Origin: Roseivirga thermotolerans
Lineage (GTDB): Bacteria; Bacteroidota; Bacteroidia; Cytophagales; Cyclobacteriaceae
Length of the DNA: 64,000 bases
Direction: 5' to 3'
Assembly (NCBI RefSeq): GCF_014653175.1
Contig: NZ_BNAG01000001.1
Coordinates: 868,001 to 932,000, forward strand
A model generated the notes under the pieces. The model saw nothing but the letters and a program-made list of their open reading frames with translations. It did not search any database and was not told where the DNA came from. Position numbers and translations under genes: made by a program. Positions 52,936-61,842 of this stretch are shown here, one piece after another. Every line of letters begins with the position of its first letter. Positions within the stretch are counted from its first letter, which is position 1.

Positions 52936-54849
52936 CTACTGTAATTCTTCTTTCTGTCTTTTCAGGTCGCTGAGTGCGGCCTCTATTCGGTTTGCAAAGC
53001 GCAAAACTTCCTCTTTGCTTAACCGTTGTTCGGCAACAAGGTCATAAAGCCTGTTGCGTTCTTCCAGCAAATCGGGTATTCCCAGATAGCCGATGCTCGG
53101 TTTTACTTTGTGAAGCATTTTTCGGCAGGTTTCATAATCGGGCTGGTCCAGAGCTTCTTTGAGCTTCTGTAAGTCTTTGGGCAAGTTTTCCATTATGGTT
53201 TCAATCAGGTCTATAAGGAAAGCCAAGTTGCCCTGAGCCGAATTCTTTAAGTGTGTTAAGTCTACCGATTCGTTCATTGTGTTGTGTTTAGGTTTGGCCA
53301 TGTCTCTTATTTTAAGAGCCAGGGTTTTGGGGTTGGCTGGTTTCACCAAATAGGCCCATTGCGATATGCTTGAAAGTTCCGGGTGCTTATTTTGAGCATC
53401 GCCCGATAAAAATATGATGGGGACTTGGCGGTTGGGCCCTGCCGTTGTTCGCAATTCTTCAATGAGGCCTGCCGAGTGATCATCGCCCAGATGGAGGTCG
53501 CACACAAGCAAGTCGTAGCTTTCAGACCAAAGCAGGGCTTTCAGATCGGGCAGCGTTTCTACAAAGCGGGCCGATAGCCCCCAATTATCGGCATATTGCT
53601 TGAGCATCATGGTGCTCATGGCGTCATCTTCTGCAAAAAGTACCCTTAGGTTTTGCAGAGAGGCAGCCGAGGGTTCTTCCAGATAGTCGCGGGTGGTATA
53701 CTGAGTAACCTCTCCCGGCTTACAGTCAATAGAGAACCACATGGAGGTGCCTTTGCCCAATTGGCTCTTAATTTTCAGGTGCCCCCCCATTGTTTCAATA
53801 ATTCCCTGGGCAATACCCATACCCAGCCCGGTGCCACCATATTCATAAAAGCTTTGTCCTTCTACCTGAGTAAAGGGTTCCAGAATTTTAGCAATACTTT
53901 CCTCGCTCATACCCACACCCGTATCGTGCACAGAAAATTTGAGGCGAAGCGACTTGGCTTTTTGGCTCACCGGTTCTACGGCAAGGGTAACGCTCCCCGA
54001 ATGGGTAAACTTTATGGCATTGCCAATGAGATTATACAGTACCTGGGAGAGTCTGATGGGGTCGGAAACAATAATTTGCGGTACTCCTGGGGCAATGGTG
54101 GTTTCAAGAACTATTCCTTTTTCCTGAGTACTCAGTGTAAAGCCTCTTACAATAGAGTCGAGAATGTCTTTTAGTTCAAAAGCGAGTTCTTCGAGTTGTA
54201 GCTTGCCTTCTTCAATTTTAGAAAGATCGAGTACATCATTGATTACATGGTTGAGGTGTTGCGATGTGGCCTTTAATGCATGAAGCAGGCTGGGCACATC
54301 CTGACTCTTGGTGGTTTCCAGTAGCTTTACCAAACCGGTAATGCTGTGTAGTGGGGTGCGCATTTCGTGGCTAACCTCAGCGAAGAATCGCTGCTTAAAT
54401 TTTTGAATCCGCAGCAATTCATCGTTTCGGTAGGCTAGTAGCTTCTTTTCTGCTTCCAGGTACTTCTGTTGTATGGCCAACACTTCTTCATTGATGGCCG
54501 CGTTGTTGCGCGATTGCTGAACGGTGAGAATTTGTTCTCGTTCGTGGCTTCGGTCTACTATGAACCACAACCATTGCTTGGCCGATTTTCTCTGAAAGGT
54601 AATGGAGAAAAGGGCTTCTTTCTGTTCGTGCCACTCTACCAGATCGAATACCAATGGTTCGGATTGGAGACTTTTTAAAACGTCTTGCAGGCTCAATAGA
54701 AAGTCGAACTGTTCGAACAGAGGAACGGATTTGTTTATGGTGAGTAGGGTATTGCAGCTTTCGCTTACCAGCCCCTGCTCATCGAAGAGCACTACCTGGC
54801 ACTTTGGCCCAAGTTGCTCTAGCTTAATGGAGTCTAGCCGCTCGCTCAT
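52936..54849 (-). CDS. Soluble hybrid histidine kinase (HisKA-HATPase-REC-HPt)
   Basis: A 637-residue cytoplasmic kinase with no membrane segment. Residues 1-105 look like a PAS-type input, followed by a coiled coil (110-155). The HisKA domain has AEVSHEMRTPLHS with phosphoacceptor His161; the ATP domain has NLIGNAIKFTH, DTGVGM and GGTGLGMGI. The receiver (401-518) has acidic D408-D409, phosphoacceptor Asp451 in LLVCDLHLGDD and Lys503. The last 110 residues are an HPt domain with His580 in KMLHKVKPSIG. It overlaps the GTPase gene by 4 bp. No separate output regulator is adjacent, so phosphate may leave through another protein. Confidence 0.95.
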   Translation of the reverse strand: MSERLDSIKLEQLGPKCQVVLFDEQGLVSESCNTLLTINKSVPLFEQFDFLLSLQDVLKSLQSEPLVFDLVEWHEQKEALFSITFQRKSAKQWLWFIVDRSHEREQILTVQQSRNNAAINEEVLAIQQKYLEAEKKLLAYRNDELLRIQKFKQRFFAEVSHEMRTPLHSITGLVKLLETTKSQDVPSLLHALKATSQHLNHVINDVLDLSKIEEGKLQLEELAFELKDILDSIVRGFTLSTQEKGIVLETTIAPGVPQIIVSDPIRLSQVLYNLIGNAIKFTHSGSVTLAVEPVSQKAKSLRLKFSVHDTGVGMSEESIAKILEPFTQVEGQSFYEYGGTGLGMGIAQGIIETMGGHLKIKSQLGKGTSMWFSIDCKPGEVTQYTTRDYLEEPSAASLQNLRVLFAEDDAMSTMMLKQYADNWGLSARFVETLPDLKALLWSESYDLLVCDLHLGDDHSAGLIEELRTTAGPNRQVPIIFLSGDAQNKHPELSSISQWAYLVKPANPKTLALKIRDMAKPKHNTMNESVDLTHLKNSAQGNLAFLIDLIETIMENLPKDLQKLKEALDQPDYETCRKMLHKVKPSIGYLGIPDLLEERNRLYDLVAEQRLSKEEVLRFANRIEAALSDLKRQKEELQ

Positions 54850-55328
54850 ACCACCATACGTTCAGTAAGCCTAATAAATGCTTCTTCTACGTACTCTCCC
54901 GTTTTGGCGCTAGTAGCAATAGCCTTAAAGGGGAGGATTTGCTCTTGTACATGCTGCCACTCTTCTTCAGATACCAGATCTCGTTTGTTGGCCAGTATTT
55001 CTACGGGAACACCGGGCAATAATTCCTGAATGGCTGTAAGCTCGGTAATTAGGTCTTGATAAGACGAGGGCCGGCTTACATCTATCACGTACAACACTCC
55101 GTGAGCTCCCAGTCTGTAGCTTTGTGGTACTTTATGCTGAGCATCTTCTCCGGCAATATCCCAGATAAGCAGCGTTACCATTCGGCCATTGAGAGTGACG
55201 GTCTTCTTATCTATTTTTACACCAATAGTGGTAATGTATTCTTCTGAAAACTGACTGTGTACAAAGCGCCTGACCAGGGAGGTTTTCCCTACTCCAAAAT
55301 GGCCAACAAGTATTACTTTCTTATTCAT
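54846..55328 (-). CDS. Ras/Rab-like small GTPase
   Basis: A 160-residue single-domain GTPase. G1 is GHFGVGKTS (residues 9-17), switch I has TTIGVKID with Thr33 or Thr34 for G2, G3 is WDIAGED (57-61), G4 is NKRD (114-117) and G5 is TSAK (139-142). The glutamine that is catalytic in Ras (Q61) is replaced by Glu61, and the Ras Gly12 position is Phe11. No lipidation motif is present at the C-terminus, which ends in TERMVV. It overlaps the upstream 280-residue gene by 8 bp and the kinase gene by 4 bp. Prokaryotic Ras-family GTPases exist (MglA is one), but the partner set here is unusual. Confidence 0.95.
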   Translation of the reverse strand: MNKKVILVGHFGVGKTSLVRRFVHSQFSEEYITTIGVKIDKKTVTLNGRMVTLLIWDIAGEDAQHKVPQSYRLGAHGVLYVIDVSRPSSYQDLITELTAIQELLPGVPVEILANKRDLVSEEEWQHVQEQILPFKAIATSAKTGEYVEEAFIRLTERMVV

Positions 55329-56163
55329 TCAGTTCTTCAAAATCCTGGAAGTGTTCTTCCAGTCCCTTCTCAATCATTTCCGGTTTTACGGGCTCTTCTG
55401 ATCCTTTTCGGGCTTTTTTAAGCACTTTTTCGGAGAAGCCCAGAAGCTCATCGTCTACCTTATCTTTAAAGGCACTGCTAATGGTGCCGGTGCATACTAC
55501 GGCAATAAAGAACGATTTAAAGCTTTTGATTATGATCTTATGGTTTTGATAATCTATACTTTCAAGCTCCTGAGAGTCTGACTGGAAGGCGTCTTCTACA
55601 AACGATTTAATGGCTGTGAGCATTCCGGCAACCATGTCGCGATCTAGGTTTGGCTTTTTTGAGTAGCTACCGAGCAACAGGCCTGAATTTTTTTCGATAA
55701 CGTGTATTTCATAGATTTTCGGCTCAATCACTTTAGATAGAATAACGTCTTTTTGTGAGGTGCCCGAAAACCACGCCTTAATGCGCATCTTCCAGCCTTC
55801 CCAAGAGAAGGCCAATTCCATTTGGGCATCTATTTTATCAGAGAGCTTCTGAATTTCACTGGCAATGTACTTTTTAATCATTCGGCCAATGATGGGATAG
55901 AGTGCCTCTACCACCTCATCTTGCGACTCTTGTATTTGTTGTTTAATGGATTTGGTAATTTCCGGGCCATAAACCACCGGAAACTGTTGGTAAAACCGGT
56001 CGGCTTCATCTTTAAGTATGGGCTGAATTTTTTCTTCGAGCCGCTCCCGGTTATTGAGTTGGTCGGTGAGGTCTTCCAGCTTATGGGCAAGCTCTTCCCG
56101 TTCTTCCCAGTCTTGCTCCAGGAGAATTTTTCGAAGTTGCTCAAAGCCCGGTCCCCGACTCAT
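55321..56163 (-). CDS. Possible roadblock/longin-like partner of the GTPase
   Basis: A 280-residue cytoplasmic protein. Residues 1-130 are helical and charged, with a coiled coil (EEREELAHKLEDLTDQLNNRERLEEKI). Residues about 148-245 have an alternating strand-helix-strand pattern (KIYEIHVIEKNSGLLLGSYSKK, then DMVAGMLTAIKSFVEDAF, then NHKIIIKSFKSFFIAVVCTGTI) that resembles the roadblock/LC7 or longin fold. Such domains regulate small GTPases, as MglB does for MglA. A short helical tail follows. The fold is my inference from pattern, not a confirmed match. It overlaps the GTPase gene by 8 bp. Confidence 0.6.
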   Translation of the reverse strand: MSRGPGFEQLRKILLEQDWEEREELAHKLEDLTDQLNNRERLEEKIQPILKDEADRFYQQFPVVYGPEITKSIKQQIQESQDEVVEALYPIIGRMIKKYIASEIQKLSDKIDAQMELAFSWEGWKMRIKAWFSGTSQKDVILSKVIEPKIYEIHVIEKNSGLLLGSYSKKPNLDRDMVAGMLTAIKSFVEDAFQSDSQELESIDYQNHKIIIKSFKSFFIAVVCTGTISSAFKDKVDDELLGFSEKVLKKARKGSEEPVKPEMIEKGLEEHFQDFEELNE

Positions 56164-56172
56164 AGAATGGTG

Positions 56173-56556
56173 TTATTCTGCAATCTGTTTGCCCATTTCC
56201 TGTAACAGAGTACCCAGAAGTTTACGGTTAAGTTTGCGGTCTTCCAGGTCGGCCACAGTTTCGTCCATGTCGGCTCTGAGCTGCGTTACTTTCTTGTTCA
56301 TATCGCTTCTTAGGTCCTGAATTTCGTTGGTAAGGGCGTCTTTGGTTTGGTTAATGAGTTTGTTGAGCGCATCGCGTGTTTCGTTGAGCTCGCTTTCTAT
56401 TTCGGTACGGGTTTTCTTAATGAGGTTTTTAATCTCATTGAACTCGTTGTCGTACTGTTGCATGTTCTCTCCAAAAATGAGCTGCTTTACAGCTTCTATT
56501 TTCGGATCACTTGCCGGGTTGGCAGGTGCTTTAGGGGCTTCTTCTTTCTTTGCCAT
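56173..56556 (-). CDS. Coiled-coil protein of the GTPase operon
   Basis: A 127-residue protein. After a short proline- and alanine-rich N-terminus (KKEEAPKAPANPASDP), residues 25-115 are a nearly continuous helix with heptad spacing (EFNEIKNLIKKTRTEIESEL, ALNKLINQTKDALTNEIQDL, KVTQLRADMDETVADLEDRK). No signal peptide, membrane segment or catalytic motif is seen. It begins 4 bp after the stop of the peptidoglycan-binding gene and ends 9 bp before the roadblock-like gene, so it belongs to the operon and is probably a scaffold. Confidence 0.8.
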   Translation of the reverse strand: MAKKEEAPKAPANPASDPKIEAVKQLIFGENMQQYDNEFNEIKNLIKKTRTEIESELNETRDALNKLINQTKDALTNEIQDLRSDMNKKVTQLRADMDETVADLEDRKLNRKLLGTLLQEMGKQIAE

Positions 56557-56560
56557 AGTA

Positions 56561-57190
56561 TTATTTCAGTAAAGTTTTTAAGGTCTTTTCATCTACCTCG
56601 CCAGAGGGGTAAAGGTTGTTGTTTTTCTGAAACTCGCGAAGTCTGTTTCGGGTAATGGTGCTAAAAATACCATCTTGTGGAATACTATCGGCTTTGCTAT
56701 TAATAAGCCTTTGCAGTTCCCACACGTCTGCTCCGGTATCACCAATTTTGAGCCCTACCAACGACTGGTTGCGGCTTAGCGCAATGTCTTCAGGACTTAA
56801 GTTGTATTCCATCATCAGTCTTATTTCGTCCGTGCTGTAGCCCTGGTCTCTTAGCCGTTTCGATCTTTCCAGTTTCTTTTCCAGCCAAATGACGGTTTGC
56901 AATAAGGTATTGTAATAGTCTGTGGCTTGAGTAGACTCAAAATCTTCTCGATCCATGTACCGCACGTCTATGCCATCGTTGTTCCATAGCGAACGGGCAT
57001 AGCTGCCTGCATCGAGAGCGAGCTTATAATATTGCTGTATTACGGTTGAGTCGTAAAATTCAGTGTCAATGGCATCAGATATTTCATAGTCGTAAGCCGC
57101 AGGGGGGTTGAACCTGCGGTCCTTGAGGTATTGAACCGTAATATATGAGGCCAACCCTAAAAATAAGACGAAGAAAATGAGCCGTTTCAT
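56561..57190 (-). CDS. Membrane-anchored peptidoglycan-binding-domain protein
   Basis: About 209 residues from the ATG at 57190, which starts an N-terminal hydrophobic anchor (KRLIFFVLFLGLASYITVQYL). The frame is open to 57277, but the extra residues do not fit. The middle is helical and acidic. Residues about 148-209 fit the peptidoglycan-binding 1 fold (VGLKIGDTGADVWELQRLINSK, DGIFSTITRNRLREFQKNNNL, SGEVDEKTLKTLLK). It is the first gene of the operon and the only one with an exported domain, so it may link the cytoplasmic GTPase module to the cell wall. Confidence 0.82.
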   Translation of the reverse strand: MKRLIFFVLFLGLASYITVQYLKDRRFNPPAAYDYEISDAIDTEFYDSTVIQQYYKLALDAGSYARSLWNNDGIDVRYMDREDFESTQATDYYNTLLQTVIWLEKKLERSKRLRDQGYSTDEIRLMMEYNLSPEDIALSRNQSLVGLKIGDTGADVWELQRLINSKADSIPQDGIFSTITRNRLREFQKNNNLYPSGEVDEKTLKTLLK

Positions 57191-57277: not shown

Positions 57278-57313
57278 AAAAAAACCCCGATTCCGTGAGC
57301 AGGAACCAGGGTT
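57278..57313 (-). terminator. Terminator of the TonB-dependent receptor gene
   Basis: Arms 57283-57294 and 57302-57313 form a 12-bp stem with two wobble pairs. On the minus strand it is followed by seven T residues, ending the receptor transcript ahead of the GTPase operon. Confidence 0.8.
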
Positions 57314-57336: not shown

Positions 57337-60213
57337 TTAGAAAGAATACTTTAGGCCAAGACCAAATGAACGGCCCGGGCTAAAGAAGGTAAACGGCTGA
57401 TCATCGGCCTGGTACCCTCTGTAAACTTCTTCTCTCTGATCGTTCAGAATGTTGGATATACTAAAGTTGAACGACATGTTTCTTTCTTTACCAAAAGTCT
57501 TGTTCAGGTTAAAGTTCAGACTGTTGAAAGGCTCGGTATATACATCGGGGAACAAACCACCACCTACAATGTACAGGGTAGAGCCCTTTACGTTGTAGAA
57601 TAGACCGGCATCTAGGCCATTGTCAAAGTTTTCGTAGCCAATGCTTGTATTGATGATGAATGGCGCTTGTCCGGCCATGTTTCTTGTGTTTTTCACATTC
57701 TCACCATTTTTCTCATACTGCAAACGAGCGTTGTATTCTCTGTCGGTCATGGTAATTTCTGAGTTCACAACGGTTACGTTGGTGCCAATGTAGAAGTTGC
57801 TAAGTGCCGGAGTAAGGAACGAAAGGTCTTTCTTAAACTCTACTTCGCCTCCTAATACGCGGCCATCTCCTACGTTTCTTGGCTGATACTCTGTACTGGT
57901 TTGTTGCTCAGGAATTCGTACCAACTCTATTGGGTCGTCAAAAGTTTTGTAGAAAGCACTTACTGAAAGTATTTCGGTTCCGGGGAAGAAGATCTCCCAT
58001 CTCAGGTCAAAGTTATTTATTCGGGTTACACCCAGCTGACCGTCCCAGTCGCTGTACTGGAATAAACCTCCGTTAAAAATACGGTTGGTTAGTGGGTCAA
58101 TGATCTGAGCAAACGACAACTCTTTGAATGACGGTCTGGCAATGGTTTTGGAGTATGAAAGCCTTACGTTCTGATCGTCATTAACCGCATACACAAGGTT
58201 TACACTAGGGAAAAGGTCGAAGTCATCAATCACCACTTCGTTTTCCAGATTGTTACCACTACCCAAGTTGGCATATTCTACATCGCGCCCGGTGTGTCTC
58301 TGAATAAACTTCTCACCTCTAAGGCCAAGAACGGCCTTTAATTTAGCGGTTGGGTTCAACTCTGTAGAAACATATACCCCGTAGTTTTTGCTATTGGAGT
58401 TGTAGGCATTCGGGTTAGGGGTGTTGTTTCCTGAGTTCAGGTATATGGTTCCGTTAGGATACAGATATTGGTCTTGCCACACTGCATTAGGGTCGATACC
58501 GAAGTCGGGTTGAGCTCCAAAGAACTGAAGATCGTAGCTCAGAATTTCGTAGTCTCTTTCTTTGTAAATGTAGCTTGAGCCAAACTTGTATTTAGCATCT
58601 CTGCCAAAGGCCTGGCTGTTTCGGGTAATATCAAATTTGGCTACCCAGTTTACTTCTTCCAGCTCTCTCCAAATTCGGCTTGGGTTACCTCCTGCACCAG
58701 CCGAGAAAGTAGTATCTGTATTGCTGTAGGTAAAGGCGGTTTTTCTTACGTCAGGGTCTTGAATGTTTGAGAACGTAGGCGATACTCTCCAGTCAATATC
58801 CCATTTGCCGTCACCCAGGTGGTGTTCACCGTTCAACAAGAAGTTGGTAAGGCCTCGCTGATTGTACTCCAGATTGTTAGAGTAAGCTTTGTAGCCCGAT
58901 TGGCCAATGGCTTCACCATCGTTGTCTATATAAAACTGACCAGCAGTGTTAATGCCGTTCTGAAGGTGAAGAGCGGTGAATTTAAATTTAGACATATCGG
59001 TCTTATAGGCCAGTCCGGCCAAAATTCCGCCAAGCACGTTTCGTTCTGCTTTCACACCATTTTGAATGGTGGCATAGCGCAGGTTGGTATTGTTAGGGTC
59101 TACATAGCGCTGATACTCACCGTAAATCACATCATCGTAGAAAACGGTGTTGCTCTTGTAGCTGGCTGAAAATATGTAGCCTAGCTTATGAGAACCCCAG
59201 ATATCGTATTGATTGGCAGAGGTAAACGAAAGGCTGTAGTCCATAAAGCTGGTTTGTTGAGTAGCACCCAAAGTAGGGTCAAACTGCTTTAAGAAGTTGT
59301 ATATCTCTTGTCCGCTATTTCTATTAATAGGGCTTGGAATGCGCTCCTGGCGAGCCTGATCCGGCAGAGCTCGGGTACCATCGTCAAAACCAAGGAAGTC
59401 GGTAGAGCCTGTATTGCCCATAATAAAGTCTCTGTTAAAGTGCATGTTAGGATTGTAACTTACACTTAGCGATACATCCAGAATTTTTTCGTCCGGAAGA
59501 TCTTTGGTCTCAATATTTACCACACCTCCGGTGAAATCGGCCGATAGTTCTGCAATGGCCGTTTTGTACACCATCATGTTGTCGATGAGGTTGGTAGGGA
59601 AAATATCCATTTGCAAGCTGTTTCTGTCAGGATCCAGCCCGGGGATGTCTACATTGTTCAGAGTAGTTTTGGTGTATCGGTCGCCAAGGCCACGAACGTA
59701 CACGTACTTGCCTCCTTCTACCGAAACTCCGGTAATTCTTTTTACTGCCTCTGAGGCGTCAGAGTCTCCAATTTTACTAAAGCTGGCAGCCGACATACCA
59801 TCCAGTAGGTTAATGGCCTTCTTTTTAGTAATGGCTACTATAGCTTCTGAGTTTCTTACGGCTTCAGCAGTAACCACCACTTCGCCAAGCTCAGAGATGG
59901 CTTCTTTCATTCGAATGTTGTTGAAGATCACAGGCTTGTCGGCTGTTACTTCAACTCCACTAATTACAATGGTTTCGAAAGAAATAAATGAAAACTGAAT
60001 GTCGTAAGTACCAACCGGAGCTTTGATTTCAAACTTACCATCAAAGTCGGTAATGGCTCCGTAATTGGTGCCTTTTGCCAACACCGTTACACCAATGAGC
60101 GTTTCTCCAGAACCTTCATCGTATACAGTTCCTCTAATAATACCCTGCTGGGCAAAAGCCGTACTCGAAAAGGCGGTTAGAAAAAGTAGAAGTTTTAAGT
60201 AAAACTTGTTCAT
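57337..60213 (-). CDS. TonB-dependent receptor with carboxypeptidase-like regulatory domain (large)
   Basis: About 958 residues from the ATG at 60213, which begins the signal peptide MNKFYLKLLLFLTAFSSTAFA; the frame extends to 60225. Residues 22-110 are a carboxypeptidase-like domain (IIRGTVYDEGSGETLIGVTVL), the plug contains KRITGVSVEGGKYVYVRGLGDRYTKTTLNN, and the C-terminal barrel ends in an aromatic strand (FGLGLKYSF). The GLGDRYT motif is typical of a class of receptors in Bacteroidota that lack a SusD partner. The next gene upstream is a beta-helix lipoprotein, a likely partner. The substrate is unknown. Confidence 0.93.
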   Translation of the reverse strand: MNKFYLKLLLFLTAFSSTAFAQQGIIRGTVYDEGSGETLIGVTVLAKGTNYGAITDFDGKFEIKAPVGTYDIQFSFISFETIVISGVEVTADKPVIFNNIRMKEAISELGEVVVTAEAVRNSEAIVAITKKKAINLLDGMSAASFSKIGDSDASEAVKRITGVSVEGGKYVYVRGLGDRYTKTTLNNVDIPGLDPDRNSLQMDIFPTNLIDNMMVYKTAIAELSADFTGGVVNIETKDLPDEKILDVSLSVSYNPNMHFNRDFIMGNTGSTDFLGFDDGTRALPDQARQERIPSPINRNSGQEIYNFLKQFDPTLGATQQTSFMDYSLSFTSANQYDIWGSHKLGYIFSASYKSNTVFYDDVIYGEYQRYVDPNNTNLRYATIQNGVKAERNVLGGILAGLAYKTDMSKFKFTALHLQNGINTAGQFYIDNDGEAIGQSGYKAYSNNLEYNQRGLTNFLLNGEHHLGDGKWDIDWRVSPTFSNIQDPDVRKTAFTYSNTDTTFSAGAGGNPSRIWRELEEVNWVAKFDITRNSQAFGRDAKYKFGSSYIYKERDYEILSYDLQFFGAQPDFGIDPNAVWQDQYLYPNGTIYLNSGNNTPNPNAYNSNSKNYGVYVSTELNPTAKLKAVLGLRGEKFIQRHTGRDVEYANLGSGNNLENEVVIDDFDLFPSVNLVYAVNDDQNVRLSYSKTIARPSFKELSFAQIIDPLTNRIFNGGLFQYSDWDGQLGVTRINNFDLRWEIFFPGTEILSVSAFYKTFDDPIELVRIPEQQTSTEYQPRNVGDGRVLGGEVEFKKDLSFLTPALSNFYIGTNVTVVNSEITMTDREYNARLQYEKNGENVKNTRNMAGQAPFIINTSIGYENFDNGLDAGLFYNVKGSTLYIVGGGLFPDVYTEPFNSLNFNLNKTFGKERNMSFNFSISNILNDQREEVYRGYQADDQPFTFFSPGRSFGLGLKYSF

Positions 60214-60290
60214 ATAGTTTATCAATTAGTAATGTTCTTGCTCGTGTGTGGGTTTATTCTTTTTGGTGCTATTTGGCTTGTTGGCTTAAT

Positions 60291-60342: not shown

Positions 60343-61842
60343 TTAGTTACCAGGCCATTCAGTGGCAGTAGAAGCCCAAGTCCAGGCAAATACTGACAGG
60401 TCTGCACCAACTCCTGCACTTGGTGTAGCAGCAGCAGTAACACCCGATGGAATAGTACCAGTTACAAAGTCTTGTAAAGTAGAACCAGAAGGAACGTTCA
60501 ATTCAATTTTTGTGAAAGTCACACCACTGGCTGTAGTTCTGTTGATATCCTGACCTGTTTTGAGGCCCGTGATAAAGATGTTTTCAAGAGCCACAATAGA
60601 GTTGTCGTCTACGTTAATCAAATCTGTAGCTTTTCTGTCGCCTGCGCTAGCCACTACTGTACCATTTTTAATGGTATGTCCGGCCTCATAAGTACCTTCA
60701 GGACCATCTAGCTCAAAGCAGTGTGCCTCAGAGGTATTAGGAGCAATTACTACAAAGTTCTCCAACTTGCCGGCCCAAGACTGGTCAGTGTCTATACCGT
60801 CATCGTTGATGTTCCAAACCACTGCATTGTTTACGTTTACAGTACCGCCAAAGAATTCAATACCATCGTCTTGGTTGGCCACAACTTCTACATGGTTGAT
60901 GGTAGTACCTCTACCAACACCACCAAGGGTTAATCCGTTGATTTCGTTACCGTTACCGATGTTAGATCCACCATGGCGAATAGAGATGTAAGTGATGGTT
61001 CCTGAGTTATCATCGTCATCATTACCACCATAAAGACCGTTAGAGTCAGAGGTTGGGATACCTTCAATTTGTACTTCGCTCACGTCAGATCCTGAAGTTT
61101 TATTCGAAGCCGAAATTTTGGCTTTTCCAAGAATGATAACACCACCCCAAAGGCCGCTTACATCGGCAGTCAGGTTAGGGCTGGCAAAGTTTCCGGCAGC
61201 CACGTCTTCCGGAGTAATTTCATCTGCAATAGAAGTGAAAATGATTGGCATTGAAGCGGTTCCGGCAGCGTTCAGTTTACCACCTCTCGCTACCAAAAGA
61301 GCAGTAGCGTTGGCACCCGTTCCGGCCTGACCTTTTACAACTACTCCAGGCTGAATGTTAAGTGTTGCGCCAGATAGTACAGTAATTCTGCCACCAAGAA
61401 TGTAAGTTTTTCCTGTTTCCCAGGTTTCTGTACCCGAAATATTATCAGAAACAGTGATGGTAGTAGGCTCTTGTTCAATAGTAATAACAGCGGTGTTATT
61501 GCCTGATTTGCCATTGGCATCTACAACAGTAAGAGTTACAGAGCCTGCTCCTGCGGTGGTGGCCTGAAAGCTAATGGTAAAAGTTCCTGTCGTGGCACCA
61601 GCTTCTGGTGCTTCAGTTACTTCGGCAGTTCCACCTGTGGCAGTAACTGAGTTGCTGGCGTAGCCAGCTGCAATTGTAGCCGAGAAAGTAATGGTAATAC
61701 TTTCACCTTCAGTCACGCTAACAGCATCAGGCTGTGTTACGCTAGGGCCATCAATTTCCGGTTCATCGTCTCCACAAGAAGAGATACCCAGAACGAGCAC
61801 AAAGGCTAATAGTAGGTTTAAAAGTTTAACAGAGTCTTTCAT
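60343..61842 (-). CDS. Surface lipoprotein with Ig-like and beta-helix domains
   Basis: A 499-residue protein with a lipoprotein signal (VKLLNLLLAFVLVLGISSC). Residues about 30-125 are one Ig-like domain (SVTEGESITITFSATIAAG, GAGSVTLTVVDANGKSG). Residues about 130-490 have the repeated short strands of a right-handed beta-helix (ILGGRITVLSGATLNIQPGVVVKGQ, LWGGVIILGKAKIS, GTITYISIRHGGSNIG, INHVEVVANQDDGIEFFGGTVNVNNAVVWNINDDGID). A glycine and asparagine rich turn pattern is clear. It precedes a large TonB-dependent receptor on the same strand, and is probably its surface partner. Substrate unknown. Confidence 0.88.
   Translation of the reverse strand: MKDSVKLLNLLLAFVLVLGISSCGDDEPEIDGPSVTQPDAVSVTEGESITITFSATIAAGYASNSVTATGGTAEVTEAPEAGATTGTFTISFQATTAGAGSVTLTVVDANGKSGNNTAVITIEQEPTTITVSDNISGTETWETGKTYILGGRITVLSGATLNIQPGVVVKGQAGTGANATALLVARGGKLNAAGTASMPIIFTSIADEITPEDVAAGNFASPNLTADVSGLWGGVIILGKAKISASNKTSGSDVSEVQIEGIPTSDSNGLYGGNDDDDNSGTITYISIRHGGSNIGNGNEINGLTLGGVGRGTTINHVEVVANQDDGIEFFGGTVNVNNAVVWNINDDGIDTDQSWAGKLENFVVIAPNTSEAHCFELDGPEGTYEAGHTIKNGTVVASAGDRKATDLINVDDNSIVALENIFITGLKTGQDINRTTASGVTFTKIELNVPSGSTLQDFVTGTIPSGVTAAATPSAGVGADLSVFAWTWASTATEWPGN

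Follow-up and report, generated by a model that had tools for sequence, protein, structure and literature searches.

What is a Rab-like small GTPase doing in a bacterial operon that also encodes a peptidoglycan-binding protein and a hybrid histidine kinase? The question is raised by a stretch of DNA from the marine bacterium Roseivirga thermotolerans (NCBI RefSeq assembly GCF_014653175.1, contig NZ_BNAG01000001.1, forward-strand positions 868,001 to 932,000; 64,000 nucleotides (nt), hereafter the window), in which five minus-strand open reading frames (ORFs) run from 57190 to 52936. They encode, in this order, a peptidoglycan-binding protein (PGB, 209 amino acids, aa), a coiled-coil protein (CC, 127 aa), a protein with a predicted roadblock/longin domain (LON, 280 aa), the GTPase (160 aa) and the kinase (HK, 637 aa). 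We argue here that they form a wall-tethered switch in which the GTPase would gate a phosphorelay, a mechanism to which, taken as a whole, we give a probability of roughly 0.55. A preliminary description of the operon had proposed a switch of this kind, with a roadblock/longin-type partner and ties to wall and phosphorelay, and the proposal is supported in so far as the parts form a conserved module linked by gene content.

The spacings between successive genes, computed from their coordinates, are 4, 9, -8 and -4 nt, in agreement with that description, and the domains named in it were recovered by Pfam above the cut-off (PG_binding_1 in PGB, Ras in the GTPase, and HisKA, HATPase_c, Response_reg and Hpt in HK). 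The features on which the argument leans are as follows.

56561..57190, minus strand: PGB, peptidoglycan-binding protein, 209 aa (Pfam PF01471, E 1.4e-11; hydropathy; full-length homologues)
56173..56556, minus strand: CC, small coiled-coil protein with an N-terminal 'LIFGEN' motif and no membrane span, 127 aa
55321..56163, minus strand: LON, 280 aa, long N-terminal helices and a C-terminal predicted roadblock/longin-superfamily domain (AlphaFold 2, Foldseek, hhalign)
55408..55725, minus strand: predicted roadblock/longin core, LON residues 147-252
55585-55644, minus strand: first helix of the LON core, residues 174-193, its most conserved element
54846..55328, minus strand: Rup-type (Rab-like) small GTPase, 160 aa (Pfam Ras, E 1.7e-31)
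55281-55304 and 55146-55160, minus strand: GTPase P-loop and G3 motif 'DIAGE', respectively
52936..54849, minus strand: soluble hybrid kinase HK, 637 aa, with an N-terminal domain, HisKA (His161), HATPase_c, REC (Asp451) and HPt (His580)
54490..54849, minus strand: N-terminal domain of HK, residues 1-120, proposed GTPase effector domain, with Gln18 and Gln112

Conservation was followed in three samples: 59 related genomes from 40 genera, the window's own genome included; a contig scan for LON in one species-level collection, in which tblastn confirmed 440 LON-encoding stretches and the best 80 were analysed, with neighbours counted on the same strand and within 3.5 kb of LON; and 395 genomes of the phylum. 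In 12 loci of other classes LON lies in frames of 598-738 aa (OmpA-type). In the relatives, presence was called at 1e-15 for the GTPase and, for full-length PGB, at E below 1e-60 with a match running from model position 1 or 2 to 209. LON was found in 20 of the 59 relatives and 7 of the 40 genera (the window's own counted), and PGB, CC, LON and the GTPase stand together in all 19 other loci (L021-L039); the gene order, whose conservation the preliminary description had set as a check, is conserved. An HK-like kinase comes next in 18 of the 19 (in L035 it is in two pieces, as is PGB), a SpoIIE-type phosphatase takes its place in L039, and extra genes lie between CC and LON in L034, L038 and L039. 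Among the 80 loci the GTPase is near LON in 79, a protein with the N-terminal domain of HK (an effector-domain protein) in 78, CC in 77 and PGB in 22; the misses for the GTPase and the effector domain, L067 and L102, are cut by contig ends, and the three for CC (L056, L058, L062) come from genomes with CC beside PGB at another place. Because the gene set recurs in relatives it is not a chance assembly, and since L106 holds the GTPase, an effector protein (with LytTR and no kinase), CC, LON and PGB in a changed order, co-location survives rearrangement.

This gene set is of a type already described. In 2014 Wuichet & Søgaard-Andersen (PMC4316618) set Rup GTPases apart as the clade not coupled to MglB, and the Group 1 Rup neighbourhood outlined there, with Bacteroidetes among the hosts, comprises the GTPase, a coiled coil, a protein with an unknown domain (often with transmembrane segments and OmpA) and an output module with an invariant glutamine; conservon-like action was proposed, and none had been characterised as of 2014. 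The preliminary description knew of no earlier account of such a gene set, a view that has to be given up, as four of the five genes match Group 1 Rup systems and conservons are a recognised analogue. With Group 1 the operon shares a GTPase without the G3 glutamine, a coiled-coil gene, a conserved unknown-domain protein and an output kinase with an invariant glutamine, and on this gene content we have very little doubt that it is a Group 1 Rup system. It differs in having a separate membrane-anchored PG_binding_1 protein in place of fused OmpA, in that the unknown domain is here predicted to be roadblock/longin, and in outputs that also include SpoIIE, LytTR and kinase-less types, with two invariant glutamines as against the published one. 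In its main text PMC4316618 does not use the word 'longin' and mentions 'peptidoglycan' once, in connection with OmpA; among the matches listed in the open-licence literature we found neither experimental work on Rup systems nor a Rup unknown domain called longin or roadblock. What is new here is the predicted fold of LON, a separate PGB that co-occurs with the system and the swapping of outputs behind one domain, the type of gene set having been catalogued computationally in 2014.

The nearest solved structures to the GTPase are Rab14, Rab4B and Rab1B (E 5e-23 to 2e-22); Rup is reported to be the prokaryotic group closest to Rab, Rho, Ras and Ran (PMC10933270, PMC3521125, PMC4915359, PMC13015309). 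Across 102 distinct sequences, the window included, G1, the switch I threonine (serine in 2), G4 and G5 are conserved, and a glutamine at the Ras-61 position of G3 is present in 2, both from Algibacter; the window reads DIAGE. The genome contains three other matches to the Ras model, all of them weak and located in long frames (471-935 aa), and no match to Robl_LC7 (PF03259). Two Rup GTPases per locus were seen in 10 of the 80 loci (L070, L075, L078, L081, L090, L093, L096, L098, L107 and L119), and in all of these except L098 the first GTPase is followed by an effector-domain protein of 198-223 aa, too short for a kinase.

A possible roadblock/longin-like fold had been suggested for LON, and the suggestion proved right in kind. 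Searches of Pfam, NCBIfam, PADLOC and PDB sequences gave weak matches only, with none to Robl_LC7 in Pfam and chance-level matches in the PDB, two of which are longin-fold proteins (AP-4 sigma, E 0.3; BET5, E 1.0). An early AlphaFold 2 model from 19 sequences was poor (predicted local distance difference test, pLDDT, 59.8) and was superseded by one from 80 sequences with a mean pLDDT of 82.3 (72.7-82.3 across five models) and ten-residue blocks of 72-93 over residues 151-270. Its strands (E) and helices (H) run E149-157, E163-168, H175-192, E202-205, E208-214, E218-225, H230-252 and H261-272, with a short helix preceding strand 1 and further helices beyond strand 5, and this prediction contains the beta2-alpha-beta3-alpha core of the roadblock/longin superfamily; the most hydrophobic stretch of LON begins at 210, on predicted strands. 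Foldseek returned 65 PDB matches at E <= 0.001, headed by MON1A/CCZ1/C18orf8, p14/MP1, AP sigma, Ragulator, dynein roadblock and Mon1-Ccz1-Ypt7, with M. xanthus MglB at rank 12 and template modelling (TM) scores by target length of up to 0.71. Aligned by hhalign against 18 Bacteroidota roadblock domains (several near-identical), LON gave a plausible register across 67 columns (E 0.001). Helix 174-193 has a mean majority share of 0.82, compared with 0.36-0.69 in the other elements (an 18-residue window at 83 reaches 0.79), and we take it to correspond to the helix at the dimer/GTPase face of roadblock proteins. On the model and these comparisons it is highly likely that LON carries the roadblock/longin superfamily fold, and it probably regulates the GTPase.

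A weak PADLOC match of LON residues 155-223 (core at 55408-55725) to the phage-defence candidate model PDC-M49B (E 7.6e-4) is possibly just another roadblock-like domain, and a defence-system reading of the operon was rejected, the PADLOC matches being weak only. Homology of CC to the LON N-terminus is not claimed at an hhalign probability of 18.2% over 45 helical columns; in Pfam, CC has coiled-coil matches below cut-off only. Mutual exclusion of LON and Robl_LC7 in the phylum (13 and 31 of 395 genomes, none shared) is uninformative, since only about one shared genome would be expected by chance.

A pointer to what the GTPase may act upon comes from the N-terminal domain of HK. When residues 1-120 were aligned with 91 other N-termini (86 from genes beside GTPases in the 80 loci and five, duplicates among them, from relatives), Gln18 and Gln112 were kept in 92 of 92 domains. 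The domain has no convincing Pfam match and may have a PAS-like fold, which is an impression only. Behind it lies mostly an HK-like kinase (judged by phmmer similarity), which at about 360 aa in L097 and L104 leaves no room for REC; Pfam finds a SpoIIE phosphatase in L039 and LytTR in L106, and the short effector-domain proteins at nine loci (198-223 aa) have nothing of kinase length. Because this domain stays beside the GTPase while the outputs change, it is probably a GTPase effector domain. The genome of L039 has a second effector-domain protein elsewhere (L194, E 7e-17) that reads as an HK-REC-HPt hybrid kinase, and in genome G025, with neither LON nor the GTPase, the gene after an orphan effector-domain protein can be read as encoding a LytTR regulator. 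In HK itself His161, Asp451 and His580 are in place by motif, and it is taken to be soluble, having no hydrophobic stretch of the strength found in PGB; apart from the shared N-terminal domain no sensor is recognised in it. A LytTR response-regulator-like gene follows the hybrid kinase by no more than 275 nt in 10 of the 80 loci (L055, L056, L057, L058, L062, L063, L064, L066, L072 and L115, by similarity to that of L056, on which alone Pfam was run) and is a candidate output of the phosphorelay; a search of the window's genome for the L056 type gave no clear orthologue, the best of 37 matches having 38% identity.

The link to the cell wall rests on PGB, whose residues 4-22 are strongly hydrophobic by hydropathy, a feature of a strength that CC and HK lack. 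Full-length PGB occurs in exactly those 20 of the 59 relatives that have LON and the GTPase, and the remaining matches in relatives begin at model position 105 or later with E values of 1e-13 or weaker. Counted by genus the co-occurrence is 7 of 7 versus 0 of 33, or 1 in C(40,7), about 5e-8, if genera were independent, which they are not. Of the 19 genomes of the window's genus, 5 have neither LON nor PGB, 2 of these being only 80-84% complete. Judged by this pattern PGB is part of the LON/GTPase system. In the 12 OmpA-type loci of other classes CC lies in the fetched stretch in 11 and the GTPase in 9; the gene after the GTPase is a sigma-54 activator in L140 and a small kinase in L147, and the three frames scanned with Pfam carry a C-terminal OmpA domain (E 7e-13 to 1.1e-10); the LON of the window has neither a transmembrane segment nor OmpA. 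The separate membrane-anchored PGB thus appears to take the place of the fused OmpA domain of other lineages, and peptidoglycan would be linked in both arrangements. Adjoining the PGB-CC pair, an MscS-type mechanosensitive channel gene was seen in L034 (5926-6735; the same stretch in L055), L161 (2767-3588) and L162 (60-881), identified by Pfam in L034 and L161 and by reading in L162; in these few loci it is suggestive of envelope tension.

In the mechanism that we favour, LON, with CC, would form a membrane-proximal platform holding the Rab-like GTPase and would set its nucleotide state as guanine nucleotide exchange factor (GEF), GTPase-activating protein (GAP) or both; the reported activities are GEF and/or GAP for MglB and GEF for Mon1-Ccz1. 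PGB, or in other lineages OmpA fused to the platform, would attach this platform to the wall and may convey information on wall state or position. In its GTP form the GTPase would then bind the N-terminal domain of HK and so set autophosphorylation, with the phosphoryl group passing from His161 to Asp451 to His580 and on to a separate response regulator, perhaps of LytTR type in some relatives. The effector domain may also provide the missing catalytic glutamine in trans, as was proposed in 2014 (PMC4316618).

A number of observations weigh against this reading. The module is patchy: same-genus genomes G003, G016 and G018, at least 98% complete, lack LON and the module must therefore be dispensable. 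In 58 of the 80 loci, mostly from Flavobacteriaceae, PGB is missing from the vicinity of LON; of 20 genomes picked for this, 9 have no full-length PGB and 11 have it elsewhere, in three beside CC (L160-L162). The 12 OmpA-type loci give no match to the effector profile, and in 3 of them the fetched stretch lacks the GTPase. As to LON, its Pfam match to Fuz_longin_1 (E 0.0012) scores 19.5 bits against a cut-off of 26.1, and among the 80 members a weak DUF445 match is found in 28 compared with Fuz_longin_1 in 14, a DUF445 identity having been set aside as probable helical bias. The predicted TM score of the model is 0.51, Foldseek TM by query length is 0.21-0.36, the long LON helices being unmatched, with root-mean-square deviations often above 5 A, and the hhalign probability against roadblock domains, 21.5%, is hardly above the 18.2% of CC against the LON N-terminus. 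The weak Pfam, Foldseek and hhalign figures are also what speaks for the view that the longin likeness is convergence on a PAS- or profilin-like alpha-beta sandwich and that LON is a scaffold without regulatory contact to the GTPase. We consider this improbable, given that the best 50 of the 65 Foldseek matches are, by title, roadblock/longin proteins or complexes containing them and not PAS or profilin, that the 67-column roadblock-like register compares with 0.8%, 0.6% and 0.2% over 10-13 columns for the control profiles of the effector domain, PGB and the GTPase against the same roadblocks, and that the conserved helix presumably matches the face noted above.

Two other readings were weighed. 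The signal could run the other way, with the kinase as sensor, the GTPase as output and LON as a kinase-controlled GAP or GEF, as in conservons, where a roadblock GAP and a GTPase accompany an HK-like protein and the reported model places the kinase upstream (PMC13343842). The gene content is analogous, both operons combining a histidine kinase and a small GTPase with a roadblock-superfamily protein and one further protein. However, HK is soluble and without a recognised sensor beyond the shared domain, behind which a SpoIIE phosphatase or a LytTR DNA-binding domain can stand instead of the kinase, or no kinase at all, and in L140 a sigma-54 activator gene comes after the GTPase; interchangeable outputs fit effectors better than sensors, and we regard the reversed direction as unlikely. 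Nor is the operon a conservon: it has neither the CvnA-D order nor the canonical MglB-type CvnB, CvnC and MglA-family GTPase of those actinomycetotal systems, its genome lacking Robl_LC7 and its host belonging to the Bacteroidota, and conservons, as described in that source, have no peptidoglycan-binding part and no REC-HPt. The comparison with MglA/MglB made in the preliminary description stands in that a small GTPase is paired with a predicted roadblock-superfamily partner, and MglB is among the Foldseek matches, so that one could imagine a module for polarity or motility that works through localisation instead of control over a phosphorelay. The likeness is less apt because the GTPase is Rab/Rup-like, of another clade by its nearest matches, and because no neighbouring Robl_LC7 gene, nor any other PF03259 match, is present in the genome; LON has long N-terminal helices, the partner sits in a kinase operon, and the three same-genus genomes of high completeness do without LON. 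Such a module is in our view very unlikely, and the wall-tethered switch over a phosphorelay remains the reading that we prefer.

Mon1-Ccz1 and Fuzzy-Inturned are eukaryotic heterodimers with three longin domains each. They resemble LON in placing longin domains on Rab GTPases and are among its best structural matches, with the weak Fuz_longin_1 match in addition, and differ in that bacterial LON has one predicted domain. Longin and roadblock domains have been described as related GTPase platforms (PMC10933270, PMC3521125, PMC4915359, PMC13015309). If the assignment holds, the conserved neighbour becomes a candidate regulator for the Rup class, tests of GEF and GAP activity become direct, and Rup systems are brought together with MglA-MglB, conservons and Rab-Mon1-Ccz1. 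Tentatively, and at slightly less than even odds, Rup GTPases would own an overlooked longin/roadblock regulator, and the Rab-longin pairing of eukaryotes, predicted also in Asgard archaea, would exist in bacteria as a peptidoglycan-tethered switch that acts through one interchangeable effector domain on phosphorelays, phosphatases and transcription factors. A wall anchor, whether fused (OmpA) or separate, points to G-protein signalling concerned with the cell envelope in a group that is widespread, and a LON fold of the type that regulates Rab-type GTPases in human cells bears on the origin of Rab-longin pairs.

The borders of the operon had been described as terminators on both sides, of which the upstream one was found and the downstream one was not.

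57283..57313, minus strand: intrinsic-terminator-like site (hairpin and T-run, read from 57313 to 57283), 3' of the preceding same-strand gene and forming the upstream border of the operon

Downstream of the operon no minus-strand terminator was called, the weak hairpin there having a local fold z of -1.5 and no U-run adjoining the stem. Since the scan called 15 such sites in 9 kb where 9.7 would be expected, a single match is weak evidence. The operon region holds no repeats of note. In four loci from Flavobacteriaceae (L079, L104, L107 and L070) the module lies 3' of a fructose-1,6-bisphosphatase-like gene, read from the sequence by eye. On the minus strand of the window, ORFs likewise read by eye encode a TonB-dependent receptor-like protein (57337-60225) and a beta-helix-like exported protein (60343-61842), and these upstream neighbours are set apart from the operon by the terminator-like site.

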